From contig DASTZC010000224.1 of assembly GCA_035764505.1 (NCBI GenBank), positions 1-38,860 on the forward strand: a stretch of 38,860 nucleotides of DNA. The letters are read 5' to 3'. Within the stretch, counting starts at the first letter, position 1. Each line of letters begins with the position of its first letter. Below the pieces are notes generated by a model. The model was not told the DNA's origin and searched no databases. It saw nothing but the letters and a program-made list of their open reading frames with translations. The position numbers were made by a program, and so were the translations under genes. The DNA comes from Candidatus Polarisedimenticolia bacterium (GTDB taxonomy: Bacteria; Acidobacteriota; Polarisedimenticolia; Gp22-AA2; AA152). Below, one piece after another: positions 18,255-26,102 of this stretch.

Positions 18255-18330
18255 GGGCGGTTAGCTCAGCTGGGAGAGCGCTGCGTTCGCAACGCAGAGG
18301 TCGAGGGTTCGATCCCCTTACCGTCCACCA
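18255..18330 (+). tRNA. tRNA-Ala (anticodon CGC)
   Basis: Complete cloverleaf: acceptor GGGCGGT with ACCGTCC; D-stem GCTC/GAGC; anticodon stem CTGCG/CGCAG with loop TTCGCAA, giving anticodon CGC for the alanine codon GCG; T-stem GAGGG/CCCTT; discriminator A and encoded CCA. The acceptor contains the G3-U70 wobble pair, the identity mark of tRNA-Ala, which confirms the reading. The last 13 bases overlap, on the opposite strand, the 3' end of the DUF892 gene. Confidence 0.95.
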
Positions 18331-18884
18331 CGCCCACCGGCCACCTTCCGAGACCTGCCCATCATATCGTTTCCCGCCGCACGCTCGTCGCCGCGTGCCG
18401 CCTTGACGTTGATGTCGCGCATGGCGATGCGCGTCAGCTTCTCGTCGGCCGCCTTTTCCTCGTCCAGCGTCTCCTTGAGCAGCGATTCCACCTCGCTGTG
18501 GCCCAGGAGCTTGGCGAAAGTCGCCATGGTGCCATAGCTGCCGATCTCGTAATGCTCCACCTTCTGGGCGGCGGCGATCAGGCCGGCGTCGTGCACCGGA
18601 GGCTCGGCGTCCTCTTCGATGACTTCCTTGCCTTCCTTGATGAGGCCTTCCATGCCTTTGCAGGTCTTGGCCTTCGCCTTCTCTCCCAGGATCTCGAAGG
18701 CCCTCTCCAGGCGGTCCACGTGGCCCTCGGTCTCGCGCAGGTGATCTTCGAAAGCCGTCCGCAGCTCGGGCGATCGGGCCGCCTTCGCCATTTTCGGCAG
18801 CGCTTTGGTCAGCTGCTTCTCGGCGCTGTAGATGTCTTGCAGCTCTTCCACCAATAGATCTTCGAGCGATTCGAGCTTTTTCAT
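18318..18884 (-). CDS. DUF892 (YciE/YciF) ferritin-like protein
   Basis: A 188-residue protein starting MKKLESLEDLLVEELQDIYSAEKQL, the characteristic opening of the DUF892 four-helix ferritin-like family. Acidic and histidine residues on the helices (EELQDIYSAE, HLRETEGHVDRLE, VEHYEIGSYG, LDEEKAADEKL) could hold a di-metal centre. Relatives are linked to stress and bile or osmotic response, but their function is unproven. ATG 18884 follows AAGGATCGTGAG. A basic, Gly-rich tail of about 20 residues goes beyond the fold. The stop codon TAA sits inside the T-arm of the convergent tRNA-Ala gene. Confidence 0.93.
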   Translation of the reverse strand: MKKLESLEDLLVEELQDIYSAEKQLTKALPKMAKAARSPELRTAFEDHLRETEGHVDRLERAFEILGEKAKAKTCKGMEGLIKEGKEVIEEDAEPPVHDAGLIAAAQKVEHYEIGSYGTMATFAKLLGHSEVESLLKETLDEEKAADEKLTRIAMRDINVKAARGDERAAGNDMMGRSRKVAGGRGGR

Positions 18885-19103: not shown

Positions 19104-19133
19104 ATAAAAAAGCCCCCGGTTTCCCGGGGGCTT
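19104..19133 (-). terminator. Intrinsic terminator of the first Cys-rich gene
   Basis: On the minus strand a ten-base-pair stem (AAGCCCCCGG with CCGGGGGCTT) and four-base loop are followed by a T run. It lies 18 bases after the stop of the gene at 19151-19771. Confidence 0.9.
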
Positions 19134-19150
19134 CGAGTCGGGATTGAAAC

Positions 19151-19771
19151 CTAGGGAGTCGGCTCGGAGGCGCTCACCTCGCGATTCTTGCTGTTGCAGG
19201 CCTTGCCGCAGATGCGGTTCGAGTGCACATCATTCTGATCGGAGCCAAAGAGGGCACGGCAGCACTGCTGGCAATCCTGCGTCTTCGGGAGCTGCTGGCA
19301 GTCGGTAATCGAGTCGAGGCTGGGGGTCGGGAGCGAACTGACTTGCTTGGGTCCGGAGACCTTCGAAGGAGCCGTCCCGGAAGCCTTGGCCGTCAGCGAG
19401 GAGCCGAACACGCCGATCAGTGATTGGACCTGGTTCCGCAGCAGCGGAGCGCTGCCGTTCTGCGACTGAATCGTAATTCCGAGATGGCGGAATGCCTGGA
19501 CCGCGTCCTCCTCGGTGGCGGGAGAGGTGAGATCGTCGCGCAGCTTGATCCCAGCCTTCTGCAGCGTCTCCGAGGCCGTTTCCGCGGTGAGGGGGGCCGC
19601 ATCGGTGTCGCCGGAGAGACGGTCCGCCAGCATCACCGCGAATTCTCCGACGCTCACGCCTTGTGAGGCGGGAGCGGCGCCGAGCAGGAGGGCCATGACG
19701 ATGACCAGGGCGGAGGCCGAAAGAATGGTGCGCATTCTGATGACTCCATTTGAATGGAACATTAGGTTCAT
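19151..19771 (-). CDS. Secreted protein with Cys-rich tail, paralog 1
   Basis: A 206-residue protein of a family I do not recognise. ATG 19771 follows GAGGAG by seven bases; an internal ATG at codon 13 gives a shorter signal peptide. After the hydrophobic signal, ending near GAAPASQG, comes a helical region opening with SVGEFAVMLADRL, a linker (FGSSLTAKAS to PTPSLDS), and a tail with six cysteines (DCQQLP, DCQQCC, ICGKAC) that ends in SEPTP. The neighbour at 19945-20553 has the same plan and many identical positions, so they arose by duplication. The opening resembles the start of an S-layer-homology repeat, but only weakly. It has its own promoter and terminator. Confidence 0.85.
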   Translation of the reverse strand: MNLMFHSNGVIRMRTILSASALVIVMALLLGAAPASQGVSVGEFAVMLADRLSGDTDAAPLTAETASETLQKAGIKLRDDLTSPATEEDAVQAFRHLGITIQSQNGSAPLLRNQVQSLIGVFGSSLTAKASGTAPSKVSGPKQVSSLPTPSLDSITDCQQLPKTQDCQQCCRALFGSDQNDVHSNRICGKACNSKNREVSASEPTP

Positions 19772-19811
19772 GGGGGTTCTCCTCGCAAACCGGAATGTCA
19801 GTAAACTGGCC

Positions 19812-19841
19812 TTAATATGCCGTGAAATACGAAACAGTCAA
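19812..19841 (-). promoter_or_regulatory. Promoter of paralog 1
   Basis: On the minus strand TTGACT (19841-19836) and TATTAA (19817-19812) are separated by 18 bases. The start of transcription would be about 30-35 bases before the ATG at 19771. Confidence 0.65.
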
Positions 19842-19876
19842 CGCAAAATCTGGTGTCAGCATTGTGAGCAATGATA

Positions 19877-19913
19877 CAAAAAAGGCGCACCGAGGAGACC
19901 CTCGGTGCGCCTT
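19877..19913 (-). terminator. Intrinsic terminator of the second Cys-rich gene
   Basis: On the minus strand a perfect 14-base-pair stem (AAGGCGCACCGAGG and its complement) with a four-base loop is followed by six Ts. It lies 31 bases after the stop at 19945 and separates the two paralogs, so they are transcribed independently. Confidence 0.95.
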
Positions 19914-19944
19914 GTTGGAAATGAGTTCGAGTAGGGCGAATCGC

Positions 19945-20553
19945 TTAGGGCGTCGGCTCGCCAGGGCTGACGACCAGGTTCTTCTTCTGGCACAGCCGGC
20001 CGCAGACCTTACCGCTCAGGTTCAGCTGGTTCTTGCAGCAGTCCATGCAGGGGTTGCAGACCGACTGCGGTCCCGAGCAGGGGGACGGAGGCCGGGGCAG
20101 CGCCTGGCAATCCAAAGGCGTCGTGTCGAGCGACGGAATCGCCTCGGTCGTGCCGCCGGTGCGTGCATTGAACGTGCCGGTGTTCTTCTCGGAGGCGGAA
20201 GCCAGGTTGCTGCCGAAGATCCCGACGAGACTGGCAGCCCGATCGCGGCTCAGGAAACTCTCGGGATGGTCCGTCTGAAGGACGATGCCCAGCTGTCCGA
20301 ACAGGCTCGCGGCTTCCTTCTCCGTCAGCGGGCTGTTCAGATCGGCAGCGAGCTTGACGCCATGCTTCTTGAGCAGGTTGGAGGCGCTTTCCTTGGTGAG
20401 GGCCGCATCGTCGCTCTGGATCTTGGACGCGACCATGACCGCAAAGTCGCCCACCGACAGGCCATCGGAGGGAACCGGTGCGGCGGCAAGGAGCACCGAC
20501 AGGGAAAGAGCACAAGCAAGAGAGCCGACAAACAAAACCCTTCTACGATCCAT
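19945..20553 (-). CDS. Secreted protein with Cys-rich tail, paralog 2
   Basis: A 202-residue paralog of the preceding gene. ATG 20553 follows GGGGGAGAA by about seven bases; an in-frame extension of 24 codons upstream would run across the promoter and is rejected. The signal peptide is MDRRRVLFVGSLACALSLSVLLAAAP. Shared blocks with paralog 1 are SVG(D/E)FAVM, LT.E.AS..L.K.G.KL..DL.SP.TE, FGS.L, PSLD, DCQ.LP, the CC pair, CG..C..KN and the EPTP end. The tail here has eight cysteines, two more than in paralog 1, one pair in a Pro-rich insert (PSPCSGPQSVC). The function is unknown; disulfide-bonded extracellular domains are likely. Confidence 0.87.
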   Translation of the reverse strand: MDRRRVLFVGSLACALSLSVLLAAAPVPSDGLSVGDFAVMVASKIQSDDAALTKESASNLLKKHGVKLAADLNSPLTEKEAASLFGQLGIVLQTDHPESFLSRDRAASLVGIFGSNLASASEKNTGTFNARTGGTTEAIPSLDTTPLDCQALPRPPSPCSGPQSVCNPCMDCCKNQLNLSGKVCGRLCQKKNLVVSPGEPTP

Positions 20554-20596
20554 AAGGATTCTCCCCCTCGTTGGCGGAATGCTTTGTCCGGCCTGG

Positions 20597-20625
20597 ATAA
20601 TACGGTGAAGCCGAAGGGCCGTCAA
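20597..20625 (-). promoter_or_regulatory. Promoter of paralog 2
   Basis: On the minus strand TTGACG (20625-20620), a 17-base spacer and TATTAT (20602-20597): close to the housekeeping sigma consensus with ideal spacing. Confidence 0.75.
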
Positions 20626-20778
20626 GCGTTAATTTGGCCAAAAAGTGCGCATTTAGGCCGGGACAAGGCCCAAATATAGGTCTTTCGGCTTCGCCGTCAC
20701 GCGAAGGATGGCGCCCGGGCGACCTCCGAAAAGTCCTTTAAATCCGCTCAAGTAATGGCGTCCGGAATCATTATTACC

Positions 20779-20806
20779 TTGACATCCTTTGGTTTCGCCG
20801 TATTTA
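20779..20806 (+). promoter_or_regulatory. Promoter of the large surface-protein gene
   Basis: A perfect -35 TTGACA (20779-20784), a 16-base spacer and TATTTA (20801-20806). Transcription should begin near 20813, giving a leader of about 45 bases before the small ORF at 20860. Confidence 0.75.
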
Positions 20807-20859
20807 CAGAATCCTGCTTTCTGCTCGTACCAAAAACCAGTAGCGCTGAGGGGGGCTTC

Positions 20860-20919
20860 ATGGCGCGCTGTTGGCGTTATTTCTCTGCCGGTTTGGCCCC
20901 CGGCCGGGGTTGTCGATGA
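20860..20919 (+). CDS. Possible 19-residue leader peptide
   Basis: ATG 20860 is preceded four bases upstream by a strong ribosome site, AGGGGGG (20849-20855), better than any in front of the large gene. The 19-residue product is MARCWRYFSAGLAPGRGCR. Its TGA overlaps the ATG of the large surface-protein gene (20916) by four bases, the arrangement of translational coupling. It has no run of a single regulatory codon, so amino-acid attenuation is not suggested. It may only serve to load ribosomes. It could also be a chance ORF. Confidence 0.45.
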   Translation: MARCWRYFSAGLAPGRGCR

Positions 20920-23900
20920 AGGCGACCCGCTTCCTCGGACGGGTTGCGCTGGGCGTCGCCTTTGCGGTTGCCGCCGGTTTGCAGCCTCCCCCCGCCGCCG
21001 TTTCCGATTTCAGCTATTACGTCGATTTCGCATCCCCTGCGACCACGAACTGCACCCCGACTTCCTCGGGATGCACCGGCCAGTGCGCCAGCCCGACCTG
21101 CGGCACCCAGGCGACGCCCTGCCACAGCATCCAGGCCGCCATCAATATCGCCAACTGCAATATCGGAGCAAACACCGCGCTGGAAGCCGACGTCAACGTG
21201 GCCGCCGGCACCTATCCGGAGCGTCTCTTCGTCTACCCCAACATCCACCTGATCGGGGCGGGGAAAGACGTGACCACCATCGACGCCAAGGGTCTTCTGC
21301 GCTCCGCGGTGATCATGTCGAAGCAGACCCTGTTCGGGTTCGCCAGGCCGGGAGTCAAGTTCTCGATCACGGGATTCCGCATCATCCACGGCAGCGGCGA
21401 TCGGATCGATCTGGTCGACTCGGGTGGGAACCATTATTTCCAGATGGGGGGCGGCGGGATGCTGCTGTTCGGCCAGATCGGAACCACGGGCTGGCCCTCC
21501 GTCACCGATTGCCGTATCGAGGACAACACGATCATCGAGAACACCCCGGCGACGCCGGCCCCGGACTGGAACGGCGGCGGGATCTACGTTGCGGTGGGAG
21601 GCCCGATCATTTCGGGGAACATCATTCAGCGCAACACCATCACCCCGCCCAACCAGAGCGGCCAGGTGGATGCGCTGGGATGGGGGGCCGGAATCTATTC
21701 GCTCAACTTCGACTGCCTCCCGCTCATCACGCGCAACGTGGTACGCAATAACGTCACTGTCGCCCAGGTGGGAAGCGGCGCCGGCATGAACGTCGCAGGG
21801 AACGAGGGAACGATCATCAGCAACAACCTGGTGGTCGGGAACTCCGCCAACATCGAGGGGGGCGGCATCTACATCTACGCGGCCGCGGCTTCCGCTTACA
21901 ACAACGTCGTCTTCGGGAACATCGGCGGCGGCGCGGGAGGCGGCTTCAGCACCGGAAGCCCGATTGCCGACATCGACGTCACCAACAATACCGTGGTCGG
22001 CAATGTCCTGACCGTACATACCGTCCCCAAGGGGGCAATCTTCTCCTCCGTCGGCGGGGGCATCTACTCCTCCTTCATCCTGAGCCAGCAGAGCCAGCCG
22101 CTGAACCATCTGACCAACAACCTGGTCGCCAAGAACGATGCCACCTCCCTGGGGGGCGGCGGCGGGCTTTACACCTATAACGCGTTCGCCACCAACGATC
22201 ACAACGACTACTTCGGTGATGCGCCCAACGAGATTCGCGGCGATTACACCGAAGCGACCGTCGTCGGGACCAACGGCAACCTGTCGGTGGATCCGGTCTT
22301 TGCCAATATCCCGACCTTCTGGGATCACACGAATGCGGCGGGCGCCTCGAACACCGTGGTGGTCTTCGATGCCACGCGTTACGCCGTGGGCAACCAGATC
22401 GAATACAACGACGACGGCGTCGCCCGGCAGATTACCGGCATCAACACCAGCACCAAGACGCTCACCTTCACGCCCGCGATCACCTACAAGACGTGCAGCA
22501 ACGCCGTCAACGCCTCCTGCACCGTGAACACCGACTGCGTCTCCCCGGGGACGTGCAATACGGTGACGACCCAGGCGAACCGGATCCTGGCCAATTGGGG
22601 TGCCAGCACCAACGTGACCGAGGACCTGCGCCTGACGGCTTCCTCGCCGGTGCGCGACGCCGGAACGAACACGCCGCAGTTCGGGACGACTCCCACGACC
22701 GACTACGATCAGCTGCCCCGCCCCGTGGATGGGGACCAGAACGGATCGCTGATCAACGACATCGGCGCCTACGAGTTCCGCCTGCCCGACACCGACGGTG
22801 ACGGAGTGGGGGACGCCCTCGACTGCGATGATCTGGTGAACAGCGTCTGGACGGCGCCGCCCGACGTGGCCGCTCCGCTGTCGATTTCGAGCGCCCAGAT
22901 GCTCTCCTGGATGCATGCGCCGCAGTCGAACGTCTACAACGTCTACCGCGGCACGATCACCTCGCCGTGGACCTGGAACCCGTCCTGCTTCGCCTCCGAG
23001 ATTCCGGGCCTTTCCACGTCGATCGCCGCCTCGGCTCCGGCCCTGGGGACGGCGCAGTATTTCGTGGTCGGCGGGGTCAACTCCTGCGGCAGCGGACCGA
23101 TTCATACCGTTTCGACGGTCTTTCCGCCTTCGGTCTGTGATCCCGCGCCGGGCGATGCCGACGGCGATGGAGTCGCCAACCTCAACGACAATTGTCCGAC
23201 CGTCTCCAACAACACCCAGCTCGACCCCGAGCACGACACCGTCGGGACGGCCTGCGACAACTGTCCGACGACCTACAACCCGAACCAGCTCGACGTCAAC
23301 GCCAACTCCCAGGGAGACCATTGCGAGGACGGCGACGGCGACGGCTCTTTCCTGGTGAACGACTGCAACGACTCCAACCCGGCGATCCACCCCGGCGCCA
23401 CGGAGATCTGCAACGGGGTGGACGACAACTGCACCGCGGGAATCGACGAAGGCTTCGATGGCGATGGCGATGGCGTCACCACCTGCGGCGGCGACTGCAA
23501 CGACGCCAATCCGGCCATCCGGCCCGGGGCGACCGAGATCTGCAACGGGGTGGACGACAACTGCACCGGGGGCATCGACGAGGGCTTCGACGCCGACGGC
23601 GACACCTTCACGACCTGCGGCGGCGATTGCAACGACTCCAACGTGAACATCCATCCCGGCGCCGCCGAGGTGTGCAATGGTCTCGATGACAACTGCACCG
23701 CCGGAATCGACGAAGGCGGCAACGCGTTGTGCAGCGACACCAACAGCTGCACCAGCGACGTCTGCGGCGGCGCCGCCGGCTGCCAGTTCTCGCCGGTCCC
23801 GGACGGCAACGCCTGCAATGACAGCAACGCCTGCACCCAGACCGACGCCTGTGCCTCGGGCGTCTGCAACGGAACCAACCCCGTGGTGTGCAGCGCCCCG

Positions 23901-24617
23901 GACACCTGCCACGACGCGGGTACCTGCAACACCACCAGCGGCGCGTGCGAGAACGCGCCCCCGAAGCCGGACAACACGCCGTGCAGCGACGCCGACCTCT
24001 GCACGCAGACCGACACCTGCCAGACGGGAGTCTGCACCGGCAGCAATCCGGTCGTCTGCTCCCCGTCGGATGACTGCCACGACCCCGGCACCTGCGCTCC
24101 GGCCACCGGAGTCTGCTCGGTCGGAGCGCCCAAGGCGAACGGCTCCAGCTGCAGTGACGGCAACGCTTGCACCATGAACGATACCTGCCAGACGGGGGTC
24201 TGCCAGGCGGGCGGGCTGCGTGACGGCGACGGCGACGCGCACGTCGACGGGCTGTGCGGCGGAGATGACTGCAACGACCTCAACAACGCCGTCTGGCACG
24301 CACCGTTCGAGGTCACGAATCTGATCCTGACGACGACCTCGCCCGCGAACCCGGCGTGGGATTCGCAAGCCGGAGCGGCGGGACCCGAGACGACCTACGA
24401 TCTGGTGTCGGGCAGCTTCGGACCCGGCGGAGGCAGCATCAGCTTCGCAGCCGCGAGCTGCCTGCAATCGGGCGGAGCGGGCAATTCCTTCCCCGATGGT
24501 CGTCCCGATCCGACGGCGGGGCTCGCCTACTGGTACCTGGCGCGCGGCCGGAACTCGTGCGGTACCGGGACCTATGGCACCGTGCCGCGCGACACCAATA
24601 TCCCAGCCTGCCCATAA
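20916..24617 (+). CDS. Secreted mosaic protein: beta-helix, TSP3, MopE-like and Cys-rich repeats
   Basis: A 1233-residue extracellular protein. ATG 20916 starts a signal peptide (MKATRFLGRVALGVAFAVAAG); a TTG 15 codons upstream is less likely. Order: a right-handed beta-helix with DUF1565-like start and many NN-V-x-N-GG rungs (about 35-580), ending in a typical DIGAYEF; a calcium-binding TSP3-like motif (DTDGDGVGDALDCDD); beta-domain A; more TSP3 repeats (DADGDGVANLNDNCP); three MopE-like copper-site repeats (DCND...PGATEICNGVDDNC); Cys-rich repeats of the CTQTDxCxxGVCxGxxPVVC kind; a further DGDGD motif; beta-domain B. No sorting motif, LPXTG or PEP-CTERM is seen. It is probably a cell-surface or released adhesive or metal-binding protein; no enzymatic site was found in the helix. 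Confidence 0.9.
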   Translation: MKATRFLGRVALGVAFAVAAGLQPPPAAVSDFSYYVDFASPATTNCTPTSSGCTGQCASPTCGTQATPCHSIQAAINIANCNIGANTALEADVNVAAGTYPERLFVYPNIHLIGAGKDVTTIDAKGLLRSAVIMSKQTLFGFARPGVKFSITGFRIIHGSGDRIDLVDSGGNHYFQMGGGGMLLFGQIGTTGWPSVTDCRIEDNTIIENTPATPAPDWNGGGIYVAVGGPIISGNIIQRNTITPPNQSGQVDALGWGAGIYSLNFDCLPLITRNVVRNNVTVAQVGSGAGMNVAGNEGTIISNNLVVGNSANIEGGGIYIYAAAASAYNNVVFGNIGGGAGGGFSTGSPIADIDVTNNTVVGNVLTVHTVPKGAIFSSVGGGIYSSFILSQQSQPLNHLTNNLVAKNDATSLGGGGGLYTYNAFATNDHNDYFGDAPNEIRGDYTEATVVGTNGNLSVDPVFANIPTFWDHTNAAGASNTVVVFDATRYAVGNQIEYNDDGVARQITGINTSTKTLTFTPAITYKTCSNAVNASCTVNTDCVSPGTCNTVTTQANRILANWGASTNVTEDLRLTASSPVRDAGTNTPQFGTTPTTDYDQLPRPVDGDQNGSLINDIGAYEFRLPDTDGDGVGDALDCDDLVNSVWTAPPDVAAPLSISSAQMLSWMHAPQSNVYNVYRGTITSPWTWNPSCFASEIPGLSTSIAASAPALGTAQYFVVGGVNSCGSGPIHTVSTVFPPSVCDPAPGDADGDGVANLNDNCPTVSNNTQLDPEHDTVGTACDNCPTTYNPNQLDVNANSQGDHCEDGDGDGSFLVNDCNDSNPAIHPGATEICNGVDDNCTAGIDEGFDGDGDGVTTCGGDCNDANPAIRPGATEICNGVDDNCTGGIDEGFDADGDTFTTCGGDCNDSNVNIHPGAAEVCNGLDDNCTAGIDEGGNALCSDTNSCTSDVCGGAAGCQFSPVPDGNACNDSNACTQTDACASGVCNGTNPVVCSAPDTCHDAGTCNTTSGACENAPPKPDNTPCSDADLCTQTDTCQTGVCTGSNPVVCSPSDDCHDPGTCAPATGVCSVGAPKANGSSCSDGNACTMNDTCQTGVCQAGGLRDGDGDAHVDGLCGGDDCNDLNNAVWHAPFEVTNLILTTTSPANPAWDSQAGAAGPETTYDLVSGSFGPGGGSISFAAASCLQSGGAGNSFPDGRPDPTAGLAYWYLARGRNSCGTGTYGTVPRDTNIPACP
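23328..23720 (+). repeat. Three tandem MopE-like repeats (about 132 bases each)
   Basis: In-frame units at 23328-23456, 23457-23588 and 23589-23720 encode 43, 44 and 44 residues. Each has D-x-DGD, a DCND motif, HPGA or RPGA, a CNG(V/L)DDNCT core and GIDEG. The core matches the protein metal-binding site of MopE. Units 1 and 2 are nearly identical over the core at DNA level, pointing to recent duplication or conversion. Confidence 0.9.
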
Positions 24618-24845: not shown

Positions 24846-26102
24846 CTAGGCCGACGGGCGATGCCTGAAGAAACGGTCGTGCGCGAACATCAGGAGGGTC
24901 GAGACGAAGCCGATCAGGGAGACGACGATCCACATTCCCGCGGGGCGGCCCCCTTTGAGATAGTGCTCCACGAGATAACCGGAAAGGGGTCCCGCCGCCA
25001 GCGATCCAAGGGCCACCGGCAGGAAGGCGAACCCCATGAAGGTTCCCACCTGGTCGGCGGGCGCCAGGTCGGCCACGTACTCGTAGAAGCGGGGCGCCTG
25101 GAGCGACTCGCCGACCGCGAACAGGGCGATGGCGGTCACCACCACCGGCAGGATCGGCGAGGCCGCAATCAGCAGCCACGAAGCGCTGGCCACGGCGAAT
25201 CCCAGGATCATGGCGCTCAACGGCCGGACCCGCTTCATGAGGGCGGTCACCGGGATGGTCAGGAAGATGATGGCGGCGGCGTCCACCGCCTCGATCAGCT
25301 CGAAGCGCGAATAGCCGACGACGTCGCGGACATAGAAGGGAAGCGAGTAGAAGATCTGCCAGAACATGATCCAGAAGCCGGAGAAGACCACCAGGAAGCT
25401 GATGAACTTGAAATTGCCGAAGACCACCACCATGTCGGCGAAGACTTTGCCGAAGGTGCGGGCCGGCGCCTGCCCTCCTCCCTCCGGCTCCTGGAAGAAG
25501 AGGAAGGTGGCGACGAGATTGAACAGCGACACCGCCGCTGACATCATGAGGACATATTCGATCCCCATGCCTTCGCGGACCTGCAGCGCCAGCACGGGTC
25601 CCAGCGCCCCTCCCAGATTCACCAGGGTGTAATAGATCGAATAGCCCAGCGATTTGGTGTCTTCGTTCGTGGTGCGGGCCACCGTGCCGACGATGCACGG
25701 CTTGATGAGCGATCCGCCGATGGCGGTCAGCAGGAGGGCCCCCACGGCGTACGGTATCTTGCCCATCAGCGACACCAGGCCCTGGCCCTGGGGCATGCCG
25801 GCCAGGCCGACCGCGAAGTACCCGAGGCTGAAGATGAAGAAGCAGGCCGCCAGGCTGCGCTTGAAACCGTAGCGGTCGACAAAGACGCCGGCCAGGATCG
25901 GCAGGAAGAAGACCGCGAATCCGTAGAACCCCACCAGCGAGTTGCCCAGCGCTCCCAGCCCCACCTTCTCCACCAGGTAGACGGCCAGGATCGCCTTGGA
26001 GCCGTAGAAGGCGAAGCGCTCCAGCAGCTCCAGCCCGTTCGCTATCCAGAAAGTGCGGGTGAAGCCGGTTCTCAGGCGCTCGAAGCTCGCGGTCAGCTCC
26101 AC
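24846..26102 (-). CDS. MFS transporter, POT (peptide)-like
   Basis: A 418-residue integral membrane protein with roughly twelve hydrophobic helices. The first helix carries LELLERFAFYG, an ExxER motif characteristic of proton-coupled oligopeptide transporters, and the fourth/fifth region GGSLIKPCIVGTVAR plus YSIYYTLVNLGGALGP matches the GxIKP and FYxxINxG signatures of that family. Between helices 2 and 3 is the MFS loop DRYGFKRSL. A role in uptake of small peptides, or export of a related compound, is inferred. The start is GTG 26102, lying inside the last codons of rmuC (10-base overlap), so translation is probably coupled. It converges with the surface-protein gene. Confidence 0.85.
   Translation of the reverse strand: MELTASFERLRTGFTRTFWIANGLELLERFAFYGSKAILAVYLVEKVGLGALGNSLVGFYGFAVFFLPILAGVFVDRYGFKRSLAACFFIFSLGYFAVGLAGMPQGQGLVSLMGKIPYAVGALLLTAIGGSLIKPCIVGTVARTTNEDTKSLGYSIYYTLVNLGGALGPVLALQVREGMGIEYVLMMSAAVSLFNLVATFLFFQEPEGGGQAPARTFGKVFADMVVVFGNFKFISFLVVFSGFWIMFWQIFYSLPFYVRDVVGYSRFELIEAVDAAAIIFLTIPVTALMKRVRPLSAMILGFAVASASWLLIAASPILPVVVTAIALFAVGESLQAPRFYEYVADLAPADQVGTFMGFAFLPVALGSLAAGPLSGYLVEHYLKGGRPAGMWIVVSLIGFVSTLLMFAHDRFFRHRPSA

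Follow-up and report, generated by a model that had tools for sequence, protein, structure and literature searches.

Small secreted proteins linked to giant beta-helix proteins and to exopolysaccharide export suggest a new cell-surface or biofilm-matrix system in Acidobacteriota

Introduction

Do adjacent genes for exported, cysteine-rich proteins encode the parts of one extracellular system? The question is raised by a block of three genes (positions 19104-24617) in the window, by which we mean the whole stretch of 38,860 nucleotides of Candidatus Polarisedimenticolia DNA that was analysed. Two of the genes encode small paralogous proteins, P1 and P2, and the third encodes a giant mosaic protein. 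A first-pass annotation of the sequence had proposed that the three products work together, for example as a surface layer or a metal-binding matrix. To address this proposal, we combined the architecture of the locus with the distribution of both kinds of protein, the promoters that precede their genes and the genomic contexts in which relatives of P1 and P2 are found.

Results

The block consists of three genes for exported proteins, P1, P2 and the giant, with housekeeping genes on both sides and none among the three; the open reading frames read in the window confirmed this arrangement and its coordinates, as originally described (Table 1). P1 (206 amino acids, six cysteines within the last ~50 residues, C-terminus SASEPTP) and P2 (202 amino acids, eight cysteines, C-terminus SPGEPTP) are paralogs that share 41% identity, and both are encoded on the minus strand, divergently from the giant gene. 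The start codon of P2 is the ATG at 20553, with GGGGGAG upstream. The giant has 1,233 residues, among them 60 cysteines, with a Sec-type N-terminus, cysteine-rich repeats and a C-terminal region that ends RGRNSCGTGTYG..ACP. A terminator scan recovered the terminators proposed after P1 and P2, both of which are strong, with stems followed by T runs. The block is bordered by a DUF892 ferritin-like gene (18318-18884) and an MFS transporter gene (24846-26102), for which gene clustering found no counterpart at the same locus in G001 and G003, two other genomes of the window's family that together with the window's genome represent three genera.

Table 1. Features of the three-gene block, in coordinates of the window
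Feature	Position	Strand	Basis
P1, small exported Cys-rich protein	19151..19771	-	ORF with Sec-type N-terminus; family profile match
P2, small exported Cys-rich protein	19945..20553	-	ORF, family member; AF2 N-domain pLDDT ~95
Giant exported mosaic protein	20916..24617	+	ORF from ATG 20916; beta-helix domain family A3
Intrinsic terminator after P1	19109..19134	-	11-pair stem and T run (terminator scan)
Intrinsic terminator after P2	19882..19913	-	14-pair stem and T run (terminator scan)
P1 promoter, TTGACT-16-CATATT (TTGACT..CATATTAA), variant without CGTA	19813..19841	-	Promoter scan; alignment
P2 promoter, TTGACG-N17-TATTAT, class TTGAC..CGTA	20597..20625	-	Promoter scan; alignment with relatives
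Giant promoter, TTGACA-N16-TATTTA, class TTGAC..CGTA	20779..20806	+	Read from sequence; alignment with relatives
Giant, N-terminal right-handed beta-helix-type domain (A3 family)	21081..22328	+	Profile match, E 1.2e-162
Giant, thrombospondin type 3 (TSP3) repeat	23151..23219	+	PF02412, E 5.5e-5, just under the Pfam cut-off
Giant, three MopE-type putative metal-binding motifs	23361..23714	+	PF11617, E 1.2e-32

Each gene had been assigned its own near-consensus promoter, and such promoters were found for P1 and P2 by the promoter scan and for the giant by reading. Their hexamer pairs are largely kept at the same locus in G001 and G003, which we regard as stronger evidence for a promoter than the match to the consensus; since the hexamers are largely kept in these relatives, the predicted promoters of all three genes are probably real. 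Those of P2 and the giant do stand back to back, and they are the window's only two TTGAC..CGTA sites. The palindrome CGCCCGGGCG reported between them is indeed present (20712-20721), but it is not kept in G001 or G003 and was rejected as an operator or regulatory site; by our estimate, ~0.5 perfect palindromes of 10 bp would be expected in ~290 bp of GC-rich DNA, which puts its occurrence close to chance. The divergent intergenic region also holds three copies of a 17-19-nt repeat, CTTTCGGCTTCGCCGTATT, at 20599-20617, 20681-20697 and 20786-20804, two of which lie inside promoter spacers. This repeat is striking in the window and was dismissed because it is not conserved in the related genera (G001, G003).

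Searches of Pfam, NCBIfam and PDB sequences returned no credible family for P1 or P2, a first scan of the genome contigs with P2 as the query gave no match, and nothing relevant was found in the literature on this bacterial group and this combination of proteins. An iterated HMM profile search identified 49 family members in the loci retrieved, of which the window's genome has four: P1, P2 and one solo copy each on contigs C113 and C99. P1 and P2 are, by their predicted features, members of an undescribed family of small secreted proteins that has no Pfam or NCBIfam entry. Alignment of the family reveals three parts: an exported helical N-domain with the conserved pattern VGDFAV..A...L...GV....LTEG.AA.IL..LGV.V.T..P, a middle that varies, and a C-terminal tail that is conserved. 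Members from the window's order have a cluster of 6-8 cysteines (C..CxxCC..C..C) in the middle; most other families have a middle that is free of cysteines and often rich in Lys/Gly. The tail, [ST]x(1-3)[EDN]Px?P?, is located at the C-terminus of 44 of the 49 members, compared with 1 of 374 other proteins of the loci, and the small proteins stop at this motif, with no hydrophobic helix or basic end after it. Of 41 genomes of the class, 25 contain the family; the 12 genomes of family f4 all lack it. When the search was extended to 297 genomes of the phylum, distant, single-copy forms appeared in other classes; these, too, end in SPSTP-like tails.

Pfam analysis of the giant gave one Dicty_CTDC match besides MopE and TSP3, and no SLH match. 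For its A3 domain, relatives match Pfam Beta_helix, and the named relatives of the giant belong to Acidobacteria gp22 and groundwater MAGs. Using a profile built from the beta-helix domain and searched in the same 41 genomes of the class, A3 giants were detected in 21, with 1-4 copies per genome, and they are missing from family f4. The MopE motif (PF11617) is carried by the giant only and is absent from P1 and P2. Since MopE motif proteins are common in the window's genome (~24 contigs), the small proteins are linked to this beta-helix kind of giant and not to MopE. The metal-binding matrix of the first-pass annotation was not upheld: most other families lack the cysteine cluster, and the suggestion of metal binding comes from the name of a Pfam motif.

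Within the class, an A3 giant is found no more than 10 kb away from 18 of the 37 family loci, where random placement would give 0.49. The two also share their pattern of presence and absence in the 41 genomes, where 20 contain both, 5 the small protein only, 1 the giant only and 15 neither (Fisher P 3.4e-6); none of the P values given here is corrected for shared ancestry. The other 19 loci have no A3 giant within 10 kb; in three of these cases the contig breaks off within a giant gene. Family loci without a nearby giant make up >40% of the total. The association is seen in five families and takes several forms: divergent pairs beside tusA and HD genes in f1, a divergent arrangement beside dus and GST genes in f2, and, in f6, f11 and f12, a co-directional order of small protein, MFS-spermidine-synthase fusion and giant. 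We consider these changing neighbours and orientations more telling for linkage than P values that ignore ancestry. They also bear on the possibility that the linkage reflects nothing more than a neighbourhood in which genes for exported proteins were inherited together behind a strong housekeeping promoter, and that the products have no function in common. Within families, much of the linkage is indeed vertical, as such a neighbourhood would be, but it is kept while the surrounding genes and their orientation differ, and f4 lacks the family and the giants alike.

Two further features of the linked loci were recorded. A conserved block of rlmH, a TPR (LapB-like) gene, comF and a cyclophilin gene lies 5' of the small proteins, after which come the MFS/spermidine-synthase fusion and the giant, in loci L043-L046, L050, L052 and L104. 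Locus L047 (8915-9499, genome G021) encodes an exported 194-residue protein with 25 cysteines between the small protein and the giant.

The upstream regions of the family have a common promoter, TTGAC-N9/10-TTGRCCGTAtAt. Its core, TTGAC..[CG]GTA, is present at 35 of 49 family genes and 11 of 22 giants, as against 5 of the 330 remaining genes in these loci (Fisher P 1e-32 for family genes and 1e-11 for giants). Control patterns in which the boxes were scrambled or the spacing was altered gave 2-20 matches, compared with 52 for the real pattern. In the window's whole genome there are 46 sites of this promoter class, compared with 9 for the reversed pattern. Five of the six family or giant genes in this genome carry the class, where 0.0015 per gene is expected by chance; among the five are the two solo family genes and the second A3 giant, each of these three on another contig than the window's. 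Its presence at unlinked members is sequence evidence for a putative co-regulation of small proteins and giants. In G021, the class was not enriched over its control pattern.

The remaining sites of the window's genome mostly precede exported proteins, including MopE giants, FG-GAP proteins and TonB-type receptors. As an apparent rpsA (ribosomal protein S1; G000 C31:35228, L132) carries the same promoter class, this is probably not purely a class for surface proteins. With a list composed mostly of exported proteins together with rpsA, the promoter may serve a wider surface programme or be a single type of strong promoter, and need not define a regulon of its own. Promoters before other exported proteins and rpsA would also be expected of an inherited neighbourhood under a housekeeping promoter. 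However, a crude rule for signal peptides identified 73 other exported genes in the same loci, none of which has the promoter core, and unlinked members retain it; together with the changing contexts described above, this leads us to consider a neighbourhood with no joint function quite unlikely. Contigs C51, C55 and C213 of G000 (L136, L138, L156) encode paralogous very large exported proteins that start with 'LTFRERVEAQRAIERVYYSHQ' and lie behind a TTGAC..CGTA promoter; two of this set contain MopE motifs.

In families f14, f39 and f21, which belong to other classes of Acidobacteriota, distant homologs are encoded directly after Wza- and Wzc-type genes in exopolysaccharide operons, the products of which contain Poly_export/SLBB (Wza-type) and Wzz/GNVR/AAA_31 (Wzc-type) domains. 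A gene for a BBP2_2-type outer-membrane barrel precedes these genes in most of the loci. The operon annotation is derived from Pfam for L092 and L103, the other loci being judged from similar sequences. Profile comparison of the distant forms with the window's family (hhalign 99.2%, E 1.7e-19) makes the predicted homology of these Wzc-following proteins to P1 and P2 clear. Among the loci examined in the window's class, no family gene, P1 and P2 included, is inside a Wza-Wzc operon. Two of the three Wza operons in the window's genome (C104 and C274) start with the promoter class, and in five genomes 4 of 19 Wza loci carry it, compared with 0.17 expected (P 2e-5). From these counts the enrichment appears real but, with 4 of the 19 loci involved, partial.

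These homologs are relevant to the alternative that the small proteins act as periplasmic chaperones or export factors for giant beta-helix proteins and are not part of the surface. Such a role would suit the linkage to giants and the common promoter, the occurrence of several small-protein copies near several giants in the loci compared, and the presence of a cyclophilin-type prolyl isomerase and a TPR protein in the f6/f11/f12 cluster. It sits less well with distant homologs in polysaccharide operons that have no giants and with solo small-protein copies that have no giant nearby, and the middle, with its variable Cys or Lys/Gly content, and the tail, which is conserved, fit a surface or scaffold role as well, so that we regard chaperones as fairly unlikely. 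The idea, contained in the first-pass annotation, that small-protein homologs would not regularly be found far from a giant holds for the 18 of 37 loci near one; it fails for the 19 others and for the distant homologs in exopolysaccharide operons.

In the AF2 model the N-domain is confidently predicted (pLDDT ~95) and the cysteine region is helical. Among PDB structures, the full-length model best matches that of the Sap SLH domain (3pyw; prob 0.98, E 0.29, TM 0.33-0.37), which is also matched weakly by sequence profile (E 0.26), and the class has almost no true SLH domains. Taken by themselves, these observations would be consistent with a family of divergent SLH-like anchors that tether surface proteins to peptidoglycan or polysaccharide in the manner of an S-layer. 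On the other hand, no SLH match rose above the noise for a model of the domain alone, comparison against a thin profile of 12 local SLH units gave a probability of <5%, P1 and P2 have no PF00395 match over the Pfam cut-off, and the giant has no SLH match either. Because the domain-only model and the thin-profile comparison lend no support to SLH membership, we have not filed P1 and P2 as SLH proteins, and we consider SLH-like anchors highly doubtful. Of the surface layer once suggested for this locus, a weak hint of an SLH-type fold is what persists.

Discussion

The location of the family beside giants, and of its relatives in exopolysaccharide export operons, suggests a new cell-surface or biofilm-matrix system. 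We see about an even chance that P1/P2 family members are secreted accessory proteins of a co-regulated matrix of exopolysaccharide and giant surface proteins. The basis of this reading is the set of predicted export-type N-termini, the homology of the N-domain to the Wzc-following proteins of other classes, the tail, the linkage to giants and the common promoter class. The original suggestion that the products belong to one system is largely supported, by linkage in five families, matching presence and absence, and a rare promoter class common to unlinked members.

In a matrix of this kind, the N-domain, once exported by Sec, would dock on the exported polysaccharide or on its export machinery, with the Cys (or Lys/Gly) middle region as a folded or charged linker. 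The small protein might then help in attaching the giant to the surface, assembling it or keeping it there. One transcriptional programme, probably under one sigma factor or activator, would serve the small proteins, the giants and at least some exopolysaccharide-export operons. A more elaborate version, which we think unlikely, envisages an undescribed Acidobacteriota envelope assembly in which the S-P-[ST]-[ED]-P tail would be a recognition or processing signal for some machinery, the N-domain would couple exopolysaccharide export to display of the giant, and a dedicated sigma factor would recognise TTGAC-N9/10-TTGRCCGTAtAt.

The analysis connects a secreted family outside Pfam and NCBIfam with a single kind of giant surface protein and with exopolysaccharide export, and the promoter signature offers a way to catalogue the surface programme of this uncultured soil and groundwater group of Acidobacteria. 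If true, the matrix reading would offer a way to test how the surface or biofilm matrix of these bacteria is built.

Several known systems resemble this one in part. The giant shares three MopE motifs, a TSP3 repeat and a beta-helix-type domain with MopE (PF11617) and TSP3/beta-helix mosaic proteins; it differs in that its linked group is set by the beta-helix domain, and copper binding is here a motif name only. The small helix-loop-helix N-domain of P1 and P2 and the weak fold hint to 3pyw recall SLH-domain surface proteins (PF00395), whereas P1 and P2 have neither a Pfam match nor three SLH repeats, and the profile comparison was negative. Exported proteins whose very C-terminus is a short conserved motif are reminiscent of PEP-CTERM/exosortase and similar C-terminal sorting, but P1/P2 family proteins have no transmembrane helix or basic end after the motif; they end at it, and so lack the pattern of PEP-CTERM/exosortase substrates. 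With Wza-Wzc operons (PF02563, PF02706, PF13807) there is a double connection, since distant P1/P2 homologs directly follow Wzc and two such operons in the window's genome have the same promoter; in the window's class, in contrast, family genes stand apart from these operons and are linked to giants.

The closest functional parallels may be matrix proteins of other bacteria, although we know of no sequence relation between the P1/P2 family and RbmA/Bap1/RbmC or CdrA. As outlined in the sources cited, RbmA, Bap1 and RbmC are Vibrio cholerae matrix proteins made together with the exopolysaccharide VPS (PMC3161981), and CdrA is a Pseudomonas aeruginosa matrix protein made together with the exopolysaccharide Psl (PMC7484184). 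Compared with these proteins, the P1/P2 family is distinguished by its own N-domain, its Cys or Lys/Gly middle and its conserved tail. What the systems appear to have in common is a set of exported small and large proteins apparently co-expressed with exopolysaccharide export genes, as judged in our case from promoter sequence.
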